IMG/VR virus record: IMGVR_UViG_3300010151_000177
Coordinates: 1 to 23,392 of that record
Strand: one strand, 5' to 3'
Source: a virus
Length of the DNA stretch: 23,392 bases
The notes beneath the pieces are model-generated. The model did no database searches. It saw nothing but the letters and a program-made list of their open reading frames with translations, and was not told the origin of the DNA. A program made the translations under genes and the position numbers. How positions within the stretch are numbered: position 1 is the stretch's first letter; each line of letters begins with the position of its first letter. Below are positions 627-11,514 of the stretch, piece by piece.

Positions 627-881
627 ATGAAACAACTTGGCGATATAGTATATGAATTAGTTGATAATTTAATAGAACATATTGATACATTAAATCATAA
701 ATCTACAGATTTAGAAAATAGTATATTGAATGATGATAATGAAGCCAGTATACTTTTTAAAAAAGGTTTGATAAAGGTTTATAAAGATGAGGCTAATACG
801 TTAGCTTGTTTATTAAAAGAAATTATGAATGAGTTTATAGTTAATCACATTCAATCAAATAGTAAAGATTATAGTTCTTAG
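627..881 (+). CDS. Hypothetical helical acidic protein, 84 aa
   Basis: Small, largely alpha-helical protein of unknown function. It is rich in Leu, Ile, Asp, Glu and Asn with heptad-like spacing (YELVDNLIEHIDTLNHK near the N-terminus, and ANTLACLLKEIMNEF near residues 57-71), suggesting a helical bundle or coiled coil. No catalytic motif is visible. The start is supported by a purine-rich AAAGGG 11 nt upstream. Its stop lies 6 nt before the 5' end of the tmRNA, so it may share a transcript with the RNA genes. The upstream gap (578-626) is nearly pure A/T and shows no clear promoter. Confidence 0.65.
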   Translation: MKQLGDIVYELVDNLIEHIDTLNHKSTDLENSILNDDNEASILFKKGLIKVYKDEANTLACLLKEIMNEFIVNHIQSNSKDYSS

Positions 882-887
882 AAATAT

Positions 888-1213
888 GGGGATGACTGGA
901 ATTGACATGATGATGGCAATAGTAAGTTCAGTAAGGGTGATGACCTACATCAACCGTTTAAGTGGAAACACTTCTCTTGCGATGGCTGCCTAGTAGGTAA
1001 GTAACGCGCACCATACTACTGAGTATGCTTGTAGGTGGGTTAGGTGTAAAAGGAAGCAGATGGTATGATAAGGTAATGATAGAAAACCGCCAAACACCCT
1101 ATTGTTTGTAAATCCTATCAGTTTTGGAAGTTTAGAAAAACTTATCCTATGATACTGTAAAATGCTTATTATGAAAACATAAATGGACGTGGGTTCGACT
1201 CCCACCATCTCCA
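888..1213 (+). ncRNA. ssrA: tmRNA (transfer-messenger RNA), one-piece
   Basis: tmRNA rescues stalled ribosomes: alanyl-tmRNA enters the A site and a short internal frame adds a degradation tag. Seen here: the 5' acceptor strand GGGGATG (888-894) pairs with CATCTCC (1206-1212), including a G3.U wobble, the alanyl-tRNA synthetase identity element. The D-like segment CTGGAATTGAC matches the conserved tmRNA start. The T arm is GTGGG (1189-1193), loop TTCGACT, CCCAC (1201-1205), preceded by the conserved GGAC. A PK1-like hairpin (936-955) stands before the tag frame. With the conserved A at -4 (960), the resume codon is GGA at 964 and the tag reads GNTSLAMAA followed by two TAG stops (991-996). 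The ending AMAA fits Clp-protease degrons. CCA is not encoded. At about 326 nt it is slightly short but complete. Confidence 0.93.
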
Positions 1214-1219
1214 CAAAAG

Positions 1220-1291
1220 TGCAGGATAGAGCAGCGGTAGCTCACAAGGCTCATAACCTTGAGGTCGAGGGTTCGATTCCCTCTCCTGCCA
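1220..1291 (+). tRNA. tRNA-Met(CAT), initiator-like
   Basis: A full cloverleaf folds by eye. Acceptor: 1221-1226 pairs with 1284-1289, with a U1-C72 mismatch (1220/1290). D stem GAGC/GCTC (1229-1232/1240-1243), anticodon stem CAAGG/CCTTG (1245-1249/1257-1261), loop CTCATAA with anticodon CAT at 1252-1254, variable loop AGGTC, T stem GAGGG/CCCTC with loop TTCGATT, discriminator A. CCA is not encoded. The unpaired 1:72 position and the A11:U24 pair are hallmarks of bacterial initiator tRNA, and the segment GAGCAGC...GGTAGCTC...GGCTCATAACC closely resembles tRNA-fMet. However, the three G:C anticodon-stem pairs of initiators are reduced to two here (29:41 is A-U). It lies 6 nt after the tmRNA, so co-transcription and processing are likely. 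Confidence 0.92.
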
Positions 1292-1310
1292 CAATTGTTA
1301 ATAAAAACAA

Positions 1311-2323: not shown

Positions 2324-4405
2324 ATGACAAAAAACAAATATTCTAGTTACTGGATTGATTCTGATTTCTTCAATCCAAATACAGTTCACGATGACGATAA
2401 TTCAAAAAAGTCATCTGATTTAATGGCGTTATCCTCGTATAAACGAGCGATATCTAATTTTGTTAATATCGTAACAAACAAAAATATAGATGTCAAATTT
2501 CGGACAAGTGGTGATTCCTATACAGATGGGAACACTGTTACTATTTCAAGTAAGATTAATGAATCGGATTTTGACCCAATCGTTGGATTGGCTCTTCACG
2601 AAGGTTCTCATATTAAACTTACTGATTTTAGTATTTTGAAAAGATTGATGGCTGATGATTTTGAATATCCTATTGATGGTAACTATTTGAAATCAATAAA
2701 CAAAAAGTATGGTTCAACGGTTGACCATTTTGCTAATTACTACATAAGAGGTAAGGTTAAAGATTTGGTAAATGTAATTGAGGATAGAAGAATTGATTAT
2801 TACATATACACTACTTCTCCTGGGTATAAAGGGTATTACCACTCAATGTACAAAAAATATTTCCATTCAAAAATAATTGATAAAGGATTGAAATCCTCTG
2901 AACATCGTACTGATGATTGGGAATCTTACTTGTTTCGTATTATCAATATCACAAATGAAAATCGTGATTTAGATGCTCTTCCAAAACTTAGAGAAGTTTG
3001 GAATCTAATTGATATTAGAAACATTGGTAGATTAAAAAATACTACTGAAGTATACAAAATGGCTTGTGAAATTTTCAAAATTGTTGAAGATTCATTACCA
3101 ACACCCGAGAAAAGTGATAAAGACGAAAACGAAGGTGAAGGTGGTGGTGGTGAAGGTGGTGATGGTACTAATGATTCTGAATCTGATGATTCTAATGGTG
3201 GTGGTACTGATGGTTTTCAAAATACTAGTGATGATTCCAATAGTGAAAGTGGTGAAAACAAACAAGATTCTATGGGTGAGGATGATTCCAAAGGTGACGC
3301 TGAAGGGAATGATTCAAAAACCAACAAAGGTGATGGTGAGTTATCGCCAAGACAAAAGAAAATGTTAGAAAACGCCATTAAGAAACAAAAGAAATTCCAA
3401 GATGGTGATATCTCTAAAAAAAGAGTTTCTAACGCTGATAATAAAAAAATAGATGTATTATCAAACGCCGGGATTGAATCCAAGATGGCGGGTGAGGGTT
3501 ATGAATCTAATAGTTATTGGCATAAAAACAAAAAAACTGCAGTTATTGTAGTTCGTAAGTTTACAAAACAATTGATAGAATCTGATATTTTGGATATAAC
3601 TACTAACTACAAGTGGGGGTTTGAAAAAAATGAGGAAGCAGTATCCAAAGGTATTCAGTTGGGAACTATGTTAGGTCGTAGATTAAAAGTTAGGTCTGAG
3701 GAACGTTCTTTGACTACACCACGAATGAAAAGTGGTAAAATATCACCAAGACTGATACACGAATTGGGAATGGGTAATACTCAAATATTTGACCATACTA
3801 TTATTAATAGACATAAACCAACTTTGATTCATATTTCAATAGATGCAAGTTCATCAATGGGTGGAACACTATGGTTGAACTCACAAAGTTCAGCGATTGC
3901 AATTGCAAAAGCCGCTTCAATGACAAACAATATGGATGTTGTTATATCATATAGAGGTACTAAATGTGACAATCGTACAGTTAATCCACTTGTATTGATA
4001 GCGTATGATTCAAGAGTTGATAAGTTTTCAAAAATACCACAGTTGTTCAAACATATCAGACCGAGTGGTTGTACACCAGAGGGGTTATGTTTTGAAGCTA
4101 TCATGGATGAGTTATCAAGTGTAAATAGAAATACAGATACATTCTTTATTAACTTCTCAGATGGTTATCCTGGATTTAGTAATTCAGATATAGATTATGG
4201 TGGACTTCCCGCTGTTGAACATACAGCAAAACAAGTTAAGAAAATCGTTAAATCCGGAGTTAAAGTTTTATCTTACTTCCTACATGGTGAATATTCTAGA
4301 GGTGGTGGTGAAAACTTCAAAAGAATGTATGGTAAATCTGCTAAGGATGTTGATGTTACCAATTTATTACAATTAACTAAAACCTTGAATAAATTGTTTG
4401 AATAA
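2324..4405 (+). CDS. CobT-like VWA protein with HExxH motif
   Basis: A 693-aa protein with three parts. Residues about 1-250 carry LALHEGSHIKLTD with an HExxH zincin-type motif (H92-E93-H96) and, downstream, NVIEDRRID (150-158), the arrangement of gluzincin-like metal sites and also seen in CobT-like proteins. Residues about 258-345 form a low-complexity linker of Asp, Glu, Gly, Ser and Asn. The C-terminal part is a von Willebrand A domain with a complete MIDAS: DASSS (D507, S509, S511), T584 in GCTPEG, and D613 in FSDGYPG. In bacteria such proteins partner MoxR-type AAA+ ATPases (CobS-CobT, RavA-ViaA types), and the next gene is exactly that ATPase. I infer a metal-dependent remodelling or chaperone role rather than cobalt chelation. 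It has its own promoter/leader copy and no overlap with its neighbours. Confidence 0.85.
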   Translation: MTKNKYSSYWIDSDFFNPNTVHDDDNSKKSSDLMALSSYKRAISNFVNIVTNKNIDVKFRTSGDSYTDGNTVTISSKINESDFDPIVGLALHEGSHIKLTDFSILKRLMADDFEYPIDGNYLKSINKKYGSTVDHFANYYIRGKVKDLVNVIEDRRIDYYIYTTSPGYKGYYHSMYKKYFHSKIIDKGLKSSEHRTDDWESYLFRIINITNENRDLDALPKLREVWNLIDIRNIGRLKNTTEVYKMACEIFKIVEDSLPTPEKSDKDENEGEGGGGEGGDGTNDSESDDSNGGGTDGFQNTSDDSNSESGENKQDSMGEDDSKGDAEGNDSKTNKGDGELSPRQKKMLENAIKKQKKFQDGDISKKRVSNADNKKIDVLSNAGIESKMAGEGYESNSYWHKNKKTAVIVVRKFTKQLIESDILDITTNYKWGFEKNEEAVSKGIQLGTMLGRRLKVRSEERSLTTPRMKSGKISPRLIHELGMGNTQIFDHTIINRHKPTLIHISIDASSSMGGTLWLNSQSSAIAIAKAASMTNNMDVVISYRGTKCDNRTVNPLVLIAYDSRVDKFSKIPQLFKHIRPSGCTPEGLCFEAIMDELSSVNRNTDTFFINFSDGYPGFSNSDIDYGGLPAVEHTAKQVKKIVKSGVKVLSYFLHGEYSRGGGENFKRMYGKSAKDVDVTNLLQLTKTLNKLFE

Positions 4406-4437
4406 TGAAAAAAAAGTCAAGTGTAACTTTAACGTTT

Positions 4438-4530
4438 CCTTAACAAAACCTTAACATATTACATTTGACTTTCTCACTGGAATTTCGTATCTTTATATTG
4501 TAGGAAGTGGGGAAGTTGTGAGATGAGAAA
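4438..4530 (+). promoter_or_regulatory. Repeated promoter and 5' leader, copy 3
   Basis: Third copy and the best promoter: TTTG (4464-4467), 20 nt, TATCTTTA (4488-4495). The leader TAGGAAGTGGGGAAG then TTGTGAGATG ends at 4525 and is identical to that of copy 1 from AGGAAG onward. The ATG at 4523 opens a five-codon frame (MRKNN) ending with TAG at 4538-4540, 47 nt before the ATPase gene. The upstream arm (CCTTAACAAAACCTTAACAT) closely matches copy 1. Confidence 0.75.
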
Positions 4531-4587
4531 AAATAATTAGTTAAAACATTGAAAATTAATAGTTAAACATTTAAAATTTTATATATT

Positions 4588-5871
4588 ATGGCAAAATCAC
4601 AGAAGTTTGTATTTTTGAAAGTTGAAAGATTGGACAACAGAGATTTAATTCTTGTTGATTCAGTTGGAAACAAATTTATCATTCCTGAGATGAATGATAA
4701 AAGTACGTCACTCTATAAACGTGGAGTGGCAGCGGCTAACGCTCCGCATAAATGGTGTTTTAAAGTTAGGGTTTGTGGGAATCTCACAGATGGGATAATT
4801 AAGGTTAACCGAGTTCCCGCTGAAAAGTTTAATGAGGCAGAACCCGTTACTAATTTTAATAAACCAAATGGTGGAATTGAAAAATGGAGAATGGGTAATA
4901 CTAATACATCAAACAAAAAAGTAGAATCAGTCGCAGCTCCGGTTGGTGAGGAATTTATGAATTTTATTCATACTGAGGCAAAAGACCTCAAACCACGAAT
5001 GTTGTTTATGACAGAATTGAAATGGAAATATCTTATCCGTAACATATTACGTGGTAAAAATATTATGATGACTGGACCAAGTGGTTGTGGAAAAACAATG
5101 GCGGCTAAAGCGGCTGCAAATTCCATTGAGGGTTACAATATGGAAATCTTCAACTTAGGTTCTACTCAAGACCCTCGTATAACACTGATTGGAAACACTC
5201 AGTTTGATACTAAAAAAGGAACGGTGTTCAACCAAAGTCCTTTTGTGAAAGCGATTCAAACTCCGAATATGGTTGTTGTTCTTGATGAACTTTCAAGGGC
5301 TCACCCAGAGGCTCACAATATTCTTATGAGTGTCTTGGATGATGGTCAAAGATATTTGAGAATTGATGAGGCTAGTGATTCACCAATAATCAAAGTAGCA
5401 GAGGGTGTTTCCTTTATCGCTTCCGCCAACATAGGAAATGAATATACTGCAACTCGTCAATTGGATAGAGCTATCGTTGATAGGTTCACTATCATAGAAA
5501 TGGATACTCTTACCATGGAAGAGGAAACTAAACTACTTAATATGATGTATCCATCAGTTGATGAAGAGGTTTTAGAAAATGTGGCTGAAATTACTTCAAT
5601 GACTAGAGGTGAGGTTAAAAAAGATGTTCCAAAACTAACGAATAGTATTTCAACTCGTTCCGCTGTTGAGATTGGTTCATTACTTTATGATGGGTTCTCA
5701 TTAGAAGAAGCTGCAGAAATTACAATTTATCCTTTGTTTGATGAAAGTGGTGGGGCTGAATCTGAAAGAACATACATTAAACAATATGTTCAAAAGTTTG
5801 TTTCATCACCTGAAAATGATGATTTATTTAATACTGAAAATGACGATTTAACAAATCCGTTTAATACCTAA
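4588..5871 (+). CDS. MoxR/CobS-type AAA+ ATPase
   Basis: A 427-aa AAA+ ATPase. The N-terminal ~110 residues are a separate, probably beta-rich region of unknown role. The ATPase core follows: Walker A GPSGCGKT (163-170), Walker B VVVLDELSRA (D233, E234), sensor-1 ASANIGNEY (N281), and LDRAIVDRF with R294 and R299 as likely arginine-finger/sensor residues. The order and the ANxGNEYxxTRxLDxAxxDRF signature are typical of MoxR/CobS ATPases; CobS-like genes are known in T4-like cyanophages. Together with the upstream VWA protein it makes an ATPase-VWA pair expected to remodel or insert cofactors into a target protein. The acidic tail repeats ENDDL twice (416-424), possibly a partner-docking segment. 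A hairpin terminator follows 15 nt after the stop. Confidence 0.88.
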   Translation: MAKSQKFVFLKVERLDNRDLILVDSVGNKFIIPEMNDKSTSLYKRGVAAANAPHKWCFKVRVCGNLTDGIIKVNRVPAEKFNEAEPVTNFNKPNGGIEKWRMGNTNTSNKKVESVAAPVGEEFMNFIHTEAKDLKPRMLFMTELKWKYLIRNILRGKNIMMTGPSGCGKTMAAKAAANSIEGYNMEIFNLGSTQDPRITLIGNTQFDTKKGTVFNQSPFVKAIQTPNMVVVLDELSRAHPEAHNILMSVLDDGQRYLRIDEASDSPIIKVAEGVSFIASANIGNEYTATRQLDRAIVDRFTIIEMDTLTMEEETKLLNMMYPSVDEEVLENVAEITSMTRGEVKKDVPKLTNSISTRSAVEIGSLLYDGFSLEEAAEITIYPLFDESGGAESERTYIKQYVQKFVSSPENDDLFNTENDDLTNPFNT

Positions 5872-8727: not shown

Positions 8728-9069
8728 ATGCTTACATTAACACCTTACAACGATTTTTTCAATGATGCGTTTGATACAATTTTAACACGCTCAAAACAAA
8801 TACCTAGCTACACAGTGGAAAATGATGAACTCATTATGAGTTTTGATGTTCCTGGTTTCTCTAAAAAAGACCTGAATATAAGTGTAGAAGATTGTATAAT
8901 ACACATTAAAGGTAATACCGACACCCGTGAAATTTCAAAAACATTCAGGGTTGGTACTGAGTGGGATTTATCAAAAACCAATGCTACCGTAGAAAGTGGT
9001 GTATTAAATATCACTGTTCCAAAATTTGAAGAAAGAAAAAAGAAATTTATTGAAATTAAAGTTAAGTAA
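8728..9069 (+). CDS. hsp20: Hsp20 / alpha-crystallin small heat-shock protein
   Basis: A 113-aa ATP-independent holdase chaperone that keeps unfolding proteins soluble. The alpha-crystallin domain occupies about residues 28-113: the strand ELIMSFDVPGFSKKDLNISV, then IIHIKGN, FRVG, and the family signature ATVESGVLNITVPK with G91-V92-L93. The short tail carries I-x-I (I108-E-I110), the motif that docks into neighbouring dimers. The N-terminal arm is short (about 27 residues), so oligomers may be small. Small heat-shock genes are known in T4-like cyanophages. Its stop overlaps the next ATG by one base. With ClpP and GroES nearby it suggests a phage-borne protein quality-control set. Confidence 0.92.
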   Translation: MLTLTPYNDFFNDAFDTILTRSKQIPSYTVENDELIMSFDVPGFSKKDLNISVEDCIIHIKGNTDTREISKTFRVGTEWDLSKTNATVESGVLNITVPKFEERKKKFIEIKVK

Positions 9070-9269
9070 TGTTTTGCAAAGAAGTTGTGACTGTACGAGA
9101 TTCGTTATATTTGGTAATACGAAAGATTAAGATTGAAAGTAAGCCAATAGTGCAAACATGGAAGGAACATCTTAGGGCTGATATAGTGTTTAAGAAAGAA
9201 CCATATTATTATTTTTGTAAATTAATTGATGAGATTATCCCTGAGGAAGTTGTATCAGTACAAGATTAG
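9069..9269 (+). CDS. Hypothetical protein, 66 aa, coupled to hsp20
   Basis: Unknown function. It begins at TAATG, overlapping the Hsp20 stop by one base, so it is translationally coupled to it. The protein is mixed charge with strands at the start (EVVTVRDSLYLVIRKIKI), a central helix (WKEHLRADIVFKK), an aromatic stretch (EPYYYFCKLI) and an acidic end. Two Cys (residues 3 and 50) are present. The coupling suggests a role alongside Hsp20, but this is inferred from position only. A strong terminator follows 22 nt after its stop. Confidence 0.6.
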   Translation: MFCKEVVTVRDSLYLVIRKIKIESKPIVQTWKEHLRADIVFKKEPYYYFCKLIDEIIPEEVVSVQD

Positions 9270-9291
9270 ATTTAACATTATTTTAACAGAA

Positions 9292-9318
9292 GGAGGCTTA
9301 ATAAGCTTCCTTTTTTTT
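9292..9318 (+). terminator. Strong rho-independent terminator
   Basis: GGAGGCTTA (9292-9300) pairs with TAAGCTTCC (9302-9310), one G.U pair, followed by eight T (9311-9318). This is the clearest terminator in the window and ends the Hsp20 transcript. Confidence 0.88.
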
Positions 9319-9367
9319 ATTAGTTAAGTAGTATTTAGCTACTTGGCAGAGAATCCGGGTAAGGTTT

Positions 9368-9466
9368 ATGATGTTTGGAAATTACTTTCTTTTATTATAT
9401 TTATTAGTATCAATGGGGTTGTTTTACAACTCCATTACTCCTTTAAAAAGAAATAATTTATTATAA
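9368..9466 (+). CDS. Possible 32-aa membrane peptide
   Basis: A short frame with a good ribosome-binding site (GGGTAAGG ending 4 nt before the ATG). The product starts MMFGNYFLLLYLLVSMGLFY, one hydrophobic span of about 16-18 residues, then a polar basic tail (NSITPLKRNNLL). A second ATG at 9371 is equally possible. It lies in an otherwise empty 240-nt gap between a terminator and a large membrane-protein gene, and its stop codon falls inside the TATAAATA at 9462. Single-span phage peptides are often lysis or exclusion factors, but nothing proves that here. It may also be a chance frame. Confidence 0.4.
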   Translation: MMFGNYFLLLYLLVSMGLFYNSITPLKRNNLL

Positions 9467-9469
9467 ATA
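9462..9469 (+). promoter_or_regulatory. T4-type late promoter sequence TATAAATA
   Basis: An exact match to the T4 late promoter consensus TATAAATA, 40 nt upstream of the membrane-protein ATG at 9510. Late promoters of this family are read by RNA polymerase carrying gp55, and a gp55-like gene lies at 12634. The match sits in A/T-rich sequence, so chance is possible; its position ahead of a gene run with no other visible promoter is the main support. Confidence 0.5.
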
Positions 9470-9509
9470 CAGTTTCAGGATTTAATAAAACTAAAAATCG
9501 GTAAAAAAA

Positions 9510-10505
9510 ATGAAAAAATATTTAAATAAAAAAACTGGATTTATTTTATTGATGATTATCAGTACATTTGGACTTGTAGGTTCAGCCGCTTACTATTCGG
9601 TACTTGGGTTAAGTTCGTTATTTGCAGGAGCTTCATTCGCAGTAATAATCATGGCAGGTACATTAGAATTTTCTAAAATAATAGTAGCATCGTATTTACA
9701 TAATCATTGGAAAATCGCGGGTTGGATGAAATATTATCTTACCGTAGCCGTAGCCATTTTAATGATAATAACATCAGTGGGCATATATGGATTCTTAACA
9801 TCAGCTTATCAGAAAACATCTGATAAATTAGCTATAATTGATAAACAAGTACAAGTTATTGAATTAAAAAAAGATAGATTCCAAGAACAACTTGGTGGGT
9901 ATGTTACAGAAAAGGAACAACTAAACACATCAATATCGGAATTATCAAAAGGTTTATCAAACAATGTAATTCAGTACAAAGACAGAGAAACTGGTCAAAT
10001 AATCACTACAACATCATCATCAACTCGTAGAGTATTGGTAAAACAATTGGATGATTCAAAAGAACAACGTAATTTAATATCACAAAAAATAGAAGTGATT
10101 ACAGATTCAATAACATCATTGGAATTGAAAATATTAGATTTAGAATCAAATAACGAATTAGCTGCCGATGTAGGCCCGTTAAGATACCTTTCAAAGATTA
10201 CAGGTAAATCAATGGATATAATTGTTAATTGGTTTACATTAGCAATCGTATTTGTATTTGACCCGTTAGCAATAGCAATGGTTATAGCGTTAAATAAACT
10301 AATTAATGGCCCACCCAAACCACTTGAATCAGAAGTTAAGGTAGCTCCCAAAGAAGAAGAAATCATAGTGGTAAAGAAGGTTGATAAAGTAAAACCTAAA
10401 AAGAATGTTAAAAAAGAAGAACCACCAAAACCAACAAAAAATATATACGGAGAACCTACTAGAAAAAAATATAGCGACGGGGATAATGCAAATACTGGTA
10501 AATAA
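9510..10505 (+). CDS. Multi-pass membrane protein with coiled coil
   Basis: A 331-aa predicted inner-membrane protein. Three hydrophobic spans occupy about residues 11-31, 33-60 and 76-97; a long heptad-rich coiled coil follows (about 100-215, Gln/Glu/Lys-rich), then a fourth span (about 239-262) with VFDPLAIAMVIAL, a motif I associate with a recurring phage membrane-protein type. The cytoplasmic tail (about 266-331) is rich in Lys, Pro and Glu. Function unknown; the topology could suit a membrane-anchored scaffold, superinfection exclusion or lysis control. The region between the third and fourth spans would face one side as a rod. It lies behind a late promoter sequence and before the ClpP gene. 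Confidence 0.75.
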   Translation: MKKYLNKKTGFILLMIISTFGLVGSAAYYSVLGLSSLFAGASFAVIIMAGTLEFSKIIVASYLHNHWKIAGWMKYYLTVAVAILMIITSVGIYGFLTSAYQKTSDKLAIIDKQVQVIELKKDRFQEQLGGYVTEKEQLNTSISELSKGLSNNVIQYKDRETGQIITTTSSSTRRVLVKQLDDSKEQRNLISQKIEVITDSITSLELKILDLESNNELAADVGPLRYLSKITGKSMDIIVNWFTLAIVFVFDPLAIAMVIALNKLINGPPKPLESEVKVAPKEEEIIVVKKVDKVKPKKNVKKEEPPKPTKNIYGEPTRKKYSDGDNANTGK

Positions 10506-10506
10506 A

Positions 10507-10538
10507 TTTGGATTATTCAAATATTTTTTGTATATTAG
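10507..10538 (+). promoter_or_regulatory. Candidate Bacteroidota-type promoter before clpP
   Basis: TTTG (10507-10510), 20 nt, TATATTAG (10531-10538), resembling the -33 TTTG and -7 TAnnTTTG pattern with one mismatch in the -7 box. It starts just after the stop of the membrane-protein gene and ends 28 nt before the ClpP start. Spacing agrees with the three repeated promoters upstream, but no conserved leader follows. Confidence 0.5.
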
Positions 10539-10566
10539 TTAAAACAAAACAAAACAGTTATATTTT

Positions 10567-11205
10567 ATGAGTGATTTATATAATGAAAACAGAACAAGTT
10601 CTACAAACACAGAAGTATCATACACAGAAACCAATTCAGCTGAAAAGGAAAAATATTTTCAAGAGTTTAGAGAATTTGATTACGGTATTGATATTAAGGA
10701 TAATATAATAATAATACAAGATGTAATTCAATCAGGTCAATTATTTGATTTTGTTTCAAAAGTTAGGTTATTAAAAAAAATAAACCCTAACCTAAAAACG
10801 ATTACGTTACTATTGAATTCATCAGGTGGGGATGTTGTTGAAACACTGGGTTTAATAGATTACATAAGAAGTTTAAGAGACAGTGAAAACATCAAAGTTA
10901 ATATTGTATGTAGAGGAATGGCTATGTCAGCTGCAGCAATGTTACTTGCATCAGGTACTGGTATTAGAGTAGCATCAAAACATTCTAAAATTATGGTTCA
11001 TCAACTTTCATCATATGCTGGGGGTAAATTGGGTGATTTAAAATCCAATGCTAAATTCGCAGAACAATTGGAAGATGATTGTAATTGTATTTTGGAAGAA
11101 TGTACAAATAAAAATAAAAGTTGGTGGCAAGATATTCAACAAAATGATTACTTCTTGTCATCACATGACGCATTAGAATTAGGTATAATAGATAAAATTA
11201 TTTAA
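10567..11205 (+). CDS. clpP: ClpP-like serine protease
   Basis: A 212-aa peptidase of the ClpP/S14 fold. After an acidic N-terminal ~45 residues it shows LLLNSSGGDVVETLGLIDYI (substrate-cleft strand), GMAMSAAAMLLASG with the nucleophile S121, IMVHQLSS with H145, and QNDYFLSSHDALELGIIDKI with D194. The spacings S-H (24) and H-D (49) match E. coli ClpP (25 and 49), so the triad is complete. Phage ClpP-type enzymes serve either as prohead maturation proteases or as partners of host Clp ATPases; no capsid gene is in view to decide. It is 3 nt upstream of a GroES-like gene, pointing to a shared proteostasis role. It lacks an evident propeptide with a recognised cleavage site. Confidence 0.9.
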   Translation: MSDLYNENRTSSTNTEVSYTETNSAEKEKYFQEFREFDYGIDIKDNIIIIQDVIQSGQLFDFVSKVRLLKKINPNLKTITLLLNSSGGDVVETLGLIDYIRSLRDSENIKVNIVCRGMAMSAAAMLLASGTGIRVASKHSKIMVHQLSSYAGGKLGDLKSNAKFAEQLEDDCNCILEECTNKNKSWWQDIQQNDYFLSSHDALELGIIDKII

Positions 11206-11208
11206 ATT

Positions 11209-11514
11209 ATGAAGATGAATTACAAACCTTTAGGGGATAGAGTCGTAATAGAGATAGTAAAACGACATGATGAAAAAACAAAAGGTGGGTTATATAAACC
11301 ATCTGGCTCTGAAACAACAATGTTAGGAGAAGTAATAGCAATTGGTGGTGGGTTATTTACTCACACCGGTGACAGGATACCAATGAGTGTAACTGTTGGA
11401 GACATGGTACTATTAGAGGGTACTGGATTTAAACACAAAAATGGTGGTAAGACATACCACATTTATAGAGAGAGTGAGTTATTAGCAATATTAAATGAAA
11501 ACGTAACTGATTGA
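11209..11514 (+). CDS. groES: GroES-like co-chaperonin (gp31 analogue)
   Basis: A 101-aa Cpn10 protein that would cap the host GroEL ring, as T4 gp31 does. Family features in order: NYKPLGDRVVIEIV at the start, the mobile-loop region KTKGGLYKPSGSE (about 23-35), GEVIAIGGG, PMSVTVGDMVLL, and the C-terminal YRESELLAIL. The usual hydrophobic tripeptide of the mobile loop (as in GGIVL) is LYK here, which may alter affinity for GroEL. A second ATG at 11215 gives MNYKPLGDRV, closer to the family start, and may be the true start. It follows the ClpP gene by 3 nt. Full length; no truncation seen. Confidence 0.93.
   Translation: MKMNYKPLGDRVVIEIVKRHDEKTKGGLYKPSGSETTMLGEVIAIGGGLFTHTGDRIPMSVTVGDMVLLEGTGFKHKNGGKTYHIYRESELLAILNENVTD

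Follow-up and report, generated by a model that had tools for sequence, protein, structure and literature searches.

Phage-encoded tmRNA is already known, and one phage tmRNA with measured transcription is reportedly very highly expressed. Such genes occur in 402 of 18,146 phage genomes (PMC9004378). Full tmRNAs with tags differing from the one described here are carried by mycobacteriophages Bxz1 and Wildcat, Bacillus phage G, Streptomyces phage Tomas and methylophage Melnitz. The Melnitz tmRNA, unlike the present one, is a two-piece molecule with a glutamine riboswitch, and the roles proposed for it are upkeep of the hijacked translation machinery or the tagging of host proteins for recycling (PMC9004378). 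The one-piece tmRNA of Bacteroidota, as found in Ferruginibacter and Chitinophagales MAGs with the tag GNTQYAMAA, shares with the gene described here the tRNA-like domain, G3.U70, the A at -4, the one-piece order, the GNTQ-AMAA tag pattern, a UUUUGAC-type D loop and, in some hosts, a boxA-like leader. The phage gene differs from it by an earlier resume codon, by an element replacing the PK1 region and by Leu at position -5 of the tag.

The window, that is, the whole stretch of DNA analysed (23,392 bp), is a complete IMG/VR record. It is a contractile-tail contig with T4-like baseplate wedge genes, which bears out the T4-like phage setting proposed in the initial annotation. Its ssrA gene probably represents a functional accessory tmRNA maintained by the phage, which would rescue ribosomes together with host SmpB and add a degradation tag close to that of the host. 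It belongs to a phage lineage in which one tag residue, constant elsewhere, is usually replaced.

Anatomy of the tmRNA gene

ARAGORN calls a one-piece tmRNA at 888-1214 on the plus strand of the window, with the tag GNTSLAMAA followed by two stops, and the Rfam model RF00023 matches 888-1216 over all 374 model positions (1-374) with 72.2 bits (E 1.4e-26) against a gathering score of 47 bits. In both, the 5' acceptor strand comes first, as in one-piece genes, and the model of permuted two-piece tmRNA (RF04321) has no match over its cut-off within the window. The complete tmRNA with a tRNA-like domain recognised in the initial annotation is confirmed by these two significant matches, and the anatomy given there (G3.U, T arm, PK1-like hairpin, A at -4, tag and two stops) proves right. 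The features are as follows.

888 to 1214, plus strand: tmRNA gene (ssrA), one-piece; ARAGORN, RF00023 (72.2 bits), 94% identical copy in contig L002
888 to 894, plus strand: acceptor stem, 5' strand GGGGAUG, including G3 of G3.U70; G3.U in 5 of 5 helix-compared relatives
929 to 1157, plus strand: H2, CAGUA (929-933) pairing with UACUG (1153-1157)
938 to 952, plus strand: compact PK1-like hairpin UGAUG-ACCUA-CAUCA; conserved, at most a possible pseudoknot given its short loops
960, plus strand: A at -4 of the resume codon, counterpart of E. coli A86; A in 14 of 14 clade members and 72 of 72 hosts
961 to 972, plus strand: hairpin AGUG-GAAA-CACU at the resume codon; its 4 pairs do not vary among 12 sequences, loop GAAA or GCAA
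964 to 996, plus strand: tag frame GNTSLAMAA and two UAG stops; resume codon GGA at 964
978 to 1008, plus strand: H5 (978-981 with 1005-1008) across the tag end; pair 981-1005 at a silent codon position
1009 to 1046, plus strand: helix behind the tag (1009-1012 with 1043-1046); compensatory changes among relatives
1189 to 1205, plus strand: T arm GUGGG-UUCGACU-CCCAC; stem preserved in L035 by a change of U-A to A-U
1206 to 1212, plus strand: acceptor stem, 3' strand CAUCUCC; read from sequence, as is the next feature
1213, plus strand: discriminator A1213

The 3' end (...CUCCACAAAA) lacks an encoded CCA, and neither a terminator nor a clear sigma-70 promoter was found at the gene. The PK2-PK4 region aligns poorly to RF00023, with low posterior probabilities, apart from the compensated helix after the tag. 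Plain RNA folding gives an unremarkable energy (z -1.17), so that the evidence for the tmRNA consists in the family match and covariation rather than in stability. Two pseudoknots were considered and are not claimed: pairing of the ACCUA loop with UAGGU after the stops, since a local hairpin that covers the stops accounts better for this stretch, and a compact H-type PK1, which is not asserted because its loops are too short.

Conservation in a phage-only clade

A tmRNA family with tags of the form GNTx[L/Y/F]A[M/L]AA emerged when 2.9 million viral contigs were scanned by pattern. In the tmRNA tree, the window and eleven phage sequences constitute one clade with a support of 1.00; another phage clade carries the tag GNTQLALAA (support 0.99). 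Among the INPHARED isolates, matches to the window tmRNA were limited to a short stretch or to its tRNA-like 3' end, and the lineage is so far confined to metagenomes. Descent from the hosts using GNTQYAMAA is suggested by the tag and gains no resolution from the tree, in which these hosts are not neighbours of the phage clade. The resume codon starts at 76-79 in the window clade against 82-103 in 72 Bacteroidota tmRNAs, indicating a short 5' domain, and a nearly invariant element, GGGUGAUGACCUACAUCA, stands where the hosts have the PK1 region. In E. coli experiments PK1 could be replaced without loss and A86 could not be changed (PMC2481249); a reduced PK1 is therefore compatible with function. 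All clade members have G3.U and the A at -4.

The nearest contig (L002), from another metagenome, carries a tmRNA that is 94% identical to the window copy and has the same tag, while the 200 bases upstream of the two genes agree at 52%, that is, at the level of shuffled sequence (53%). Twenty differences separate the two tmRNAs. Two of them go together: G to A at 981, the third and silent base of the codon for Ala-6, and C to T at 1005, the base with which it pairs in H5. Of the twelve phage relatives compared, seven have A-U here and five G-C, so that the pair is formed in all of them with the residue unchanged. Compensatory changes are also found in the acceptor stem, the T stem and the post-tag helix, and overall pairing in the relatives reaches 94.8%, against at most 49% when the partners are slid by 1-3 columns. 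The tag pattern GNTx[L/Y]AMAA is retained by 14 clade members, with bases varying at silent positions. Because of the compensatory changes, including those of the invariably paired H5 position at a silent Ala third base, selection acts, on the evidence of sequence comparison, on the fold of the window tmRNA as well as on its reading frame. The initial view that retention of the wobble pair and an intact tag argues for function is thus strengthened by the relatives, which on comparison of host and phage ssrA sequences keep the fold, the resume site and the tag frame.

The same observations bear on two readings in which the gene would have no role of its own. The tmRNA occupies the position of the tRNA cluster in relatives L004 and L009, with the same small ORF (1311-1589) downstream, and several relatives have no tmRNA. 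The gene might consequently be a passenger of the tRNA cluster without a selected role, an improbable reading given its 94% conservation beside diverged flanks and its compensatory, tag-preserving changes. The existence of relatives without tmRNA does mean that the gene is dispensable for the phage lineage. The other reading is a remnant of an attachment site or host contamination, since ssrA often serves as an attachment site (PMC11915505). Such remnants usually comprise the 3' end only, whereas the window holds the whole gene with its 5' acceptor strand and tag; inspection of the listed window ORFs revealed no evident integrase, and in independent contigs the gene has phage genes on either side and belongs to a phage-only clade. 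This reading is also contradicted by compensated full-length copies in several phages, and we regard it as the least credible of all.

Probable ribosome rescue and the residue at -5

By sequence, the window gene is a complete tmRNA: its tRNA-like domain bears the identity pair for alanine, and it has a resume site and a tag frame as well as helices under selection. Its place where relatives have tRNA clusters, next to an initiator-like tRNA, also speaks for a functional gene. No SmpB was found in 20 phage records, many of them fragments, so host SmpB must serve; its use fits both this absence and the Bacteroidota-like tags. The host is presumably a member of Bacteroidota, judging from the tags and from similarity to a Flavobacterium phage (43%, one baseplate protein) and a Microcystis phage (50%). 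During infection, host RNase P and CCA enzyme would mature the phage tmRNA, AlaRS would charge it with alanine, and host SmpB would carry it to ribosomes that have stalled on broken mRNAs. Such a ribosome would then switch to the tag frame, add GNTSLAMAA and stop, and would thereby be freed for phage translation. The tag, which is close to GNTQYAMAA, would direct the protein fragment to a protease of the host, probably ClpXP.

An RNA that mainly titrates SmpB, and so blocks trans-translation in the host, would also fit the absence of SmpB from the phage records examined. An RNA resembling only a domain of tmRNA, like that of mycobacteriophage DS6A, inhibits tmRNA, perhaps by SmpB titration (PMC4131195). 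A decoy has no need of a tag, yet the tag frame, the resume site and H5 are all conserved here, and we consider a decoy function improbable.

The initial annotation had seen in the AMAA ending a possible address to a particular protease. This ending is ordinary in Bacteroidota, being present in 25 of the 72 sampled tags, and GNTQYAMAA is the tag of one host clade, to which a Ferruginibacter and a MAG of Chitinophagales belong; AMAA therefore does not make the tag special. The residue preceding AMAA, at -5, is Tyr or Phe in 72 of 72 sampled Bacteroidota tags. Among 395 Bacteroidota genomes, the pattern GNTxLA[ML]AA is found in none and its Tyr form in 12, while viral contigs have about 23 Leu, 3 Tyr and 1 Phe at this position (Fisher 2.5e-7 for 12:0 vs 3:22, which is not a literal probability because the viral contigs are related). 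Sequences L141-L143, with the Tyr form, are sister to the window and L002 inside the window clade, indicating that residue -5 has changed at least once inside phages. Leu is found in two separate supported phage clades and is kept through silent changes (CTT/CTC). The replacement of Tyr or Phe by Leu is a recurrent phage change, which may alter the degradation rate or the protease. Loss of the aromatic residue is less likely to be a general rule of phage tags, since L141-L143 have Tyr and both L163 and L040 have Phe.

Besides simple rescue, the phage tmRNA might compete with the host tmRNA, as the initial annotation had suggested, and rewrite the tag, with Leu at -5 stabilising or redirecting the rescued proteins and sparing phage polypeptides or host factors. 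The distribution of Leu described above speaks for such rewriting, as do other phage tmRNAs likewise devoid of the aromatic residue (GxQVEMAMAA, ...YEMRIAA). On the other hand, the part of the tag bound by ClpX, the C-terminal AA and the preceding Met or Leu, is unchanged, Tyr has been kept or regained in L141-L143, which belong to the window clade, and L040 has a tag ending in FALAA. In proteobacteria, residue -5 of the tag is known to belong to the SspB site. The SspB adaptor has been reported from certain proteobacteria only (PMC8138137). We regard tag rewriting as possible, if on the unlikely side, and simple rescue as the preferred reading.

Tags without the aromatic residue also occur in permuted two-piece tmRNAs of L030-L033, which match RF04321 with 64-68 bits and encode GTQVEMAMAA or GEQVEMAMAA.

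L030, 1523-1817: permuted tmRNA
L033, 963-1256: permuted tmRNA, also present in L031 and L032

These genes are phage-borne and have an AMAA-ending tag like the window gene, and differ from it in gene order, genomic position and the tag GxQVEMAMAA. L030 and L032 have AAA ATPase and membrane-protein genes in common with the window. Since their tmRNA sits at a different genomic place, it was likely acquired separately; none of 158 Bacteroidota genomes had a permuted tmRNA over the cut-off. A more general and more speculative proposal is that phage tmRNA lineages bear tags one step from those of the host (Tyr or Phe to Leu or Met at -5), retaining rescue and shifting protein fate in favour of the phage, and that the permuted-tmRNA relatives have reached a similar end. 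Closely related phage tmRNAs that differ, from one another and from Bacteroidota tags, by Tyr or Leu at one position of an RNA otherwise visibly selected constitute a natural experiment, and the alternatives of rescue only and changed protein fate are directly testable in the GNTx[L/Y]AMAA family.

Other phage tmRNAs show further variation. One-piece genes with unusually long tags occur in L034 (3164-3553, GETKVISIAPVAQYEMRIAA) and L040 (1501-1895, DEKSDFTFEDAMSFVGGEFALAA). In the crAss-like phages cr10_1 and cr60_1 (L128, 640-1025; L129, 636-1082), the phage-borne tmRNA is, unlike that of the window, read as permuted by ARAGORN, with tags GNNFVTDYTQLAVA and GNTSYVMDYTRLAA.

Genomic surroundings

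Three further features of the window are considered here.

874 to 882, plus strand: leader motif GTTCTTAGA, resembling GTTCTTTGA about 15 nt upstream of Bacteroidota ssrA
1220 to 1292, plus strand: tRNA-Met(CAU), initiator-like; ARAGORN, initiator identity from the nucleotides themselves
10567 to 11205: ClpP-like gene; PF00574 match

The ClpP-like gene had been proposed as a partner of the tmRNA, a link not upheld by the relatives, in which the two do not co-occur. The gene is present in relatives without tmRNA (G002, G003, G004 of 168 kb, and G008) and absent from most tmRNA-bearing ones, including G006 (174 kb) and G015 (138 kb). Its product resembles ClpP and ClpP-like head maturation proteases in the PF00574 match and in Ser and His residues aligned with those of E. 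coli ClpP, used as a yardstick. The protein falls below the NCBIfam ClpP cut-offs, and its best PHROG match is a head maturation protease. Together with Hsp20 and GroES genes within 3 kb (8728-11514), it makes up a small protein-quality module.

The motif GTTCTTTGA occurs about 15 nt upstream of ssrA in 27 of 72 hosts, against 9 of 620 background windows, and the leader motifs GTTCTTAGA and GTTCTTTGA are perhaps boxA-type antitermination elements. A boxA-like GTTCTTTGA is located at the same place in phages L016, L017 and L035, and it is possibly a general leader of phage and Bacteroidota ssrA genes.

The tRNA-Met(CAU) gene begins 6 nt behind the tmRNA and is absent from the sister contig L002. 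Its initiator-like marks are a U1/C72 mismatch, A11:U24 and GG/CC in the anticodon stem.

Downstream, an exact repeat, AATTTCGTATCTTTA, is found at 1647-1661, 2244-2258 and 4481-4495, preceding the kinase, VWA and AAA genes, and its first two copies are followed by a shared GGAAGTGGGGRAGTTGTGAGATG leader; AATTTCGTATCTTTA and GGAAGTGGGGRAGTTGTGAGATG are likely phage promoter and leader repeats. The P-loop kinase near the tmRNA (1721-2182) has an AAA_33/Zeta_toxin Pfam match and a PHROG polynucleotide kinase match, is absent in L002, and may be a kinase of the RNA-repair type that was inserted recently. At 2324-5871, a VWA-type protein and, next in order, a CbbQ/CobS-like AAA ATPase form a MoxR-type pair that is conserved in most relatives.
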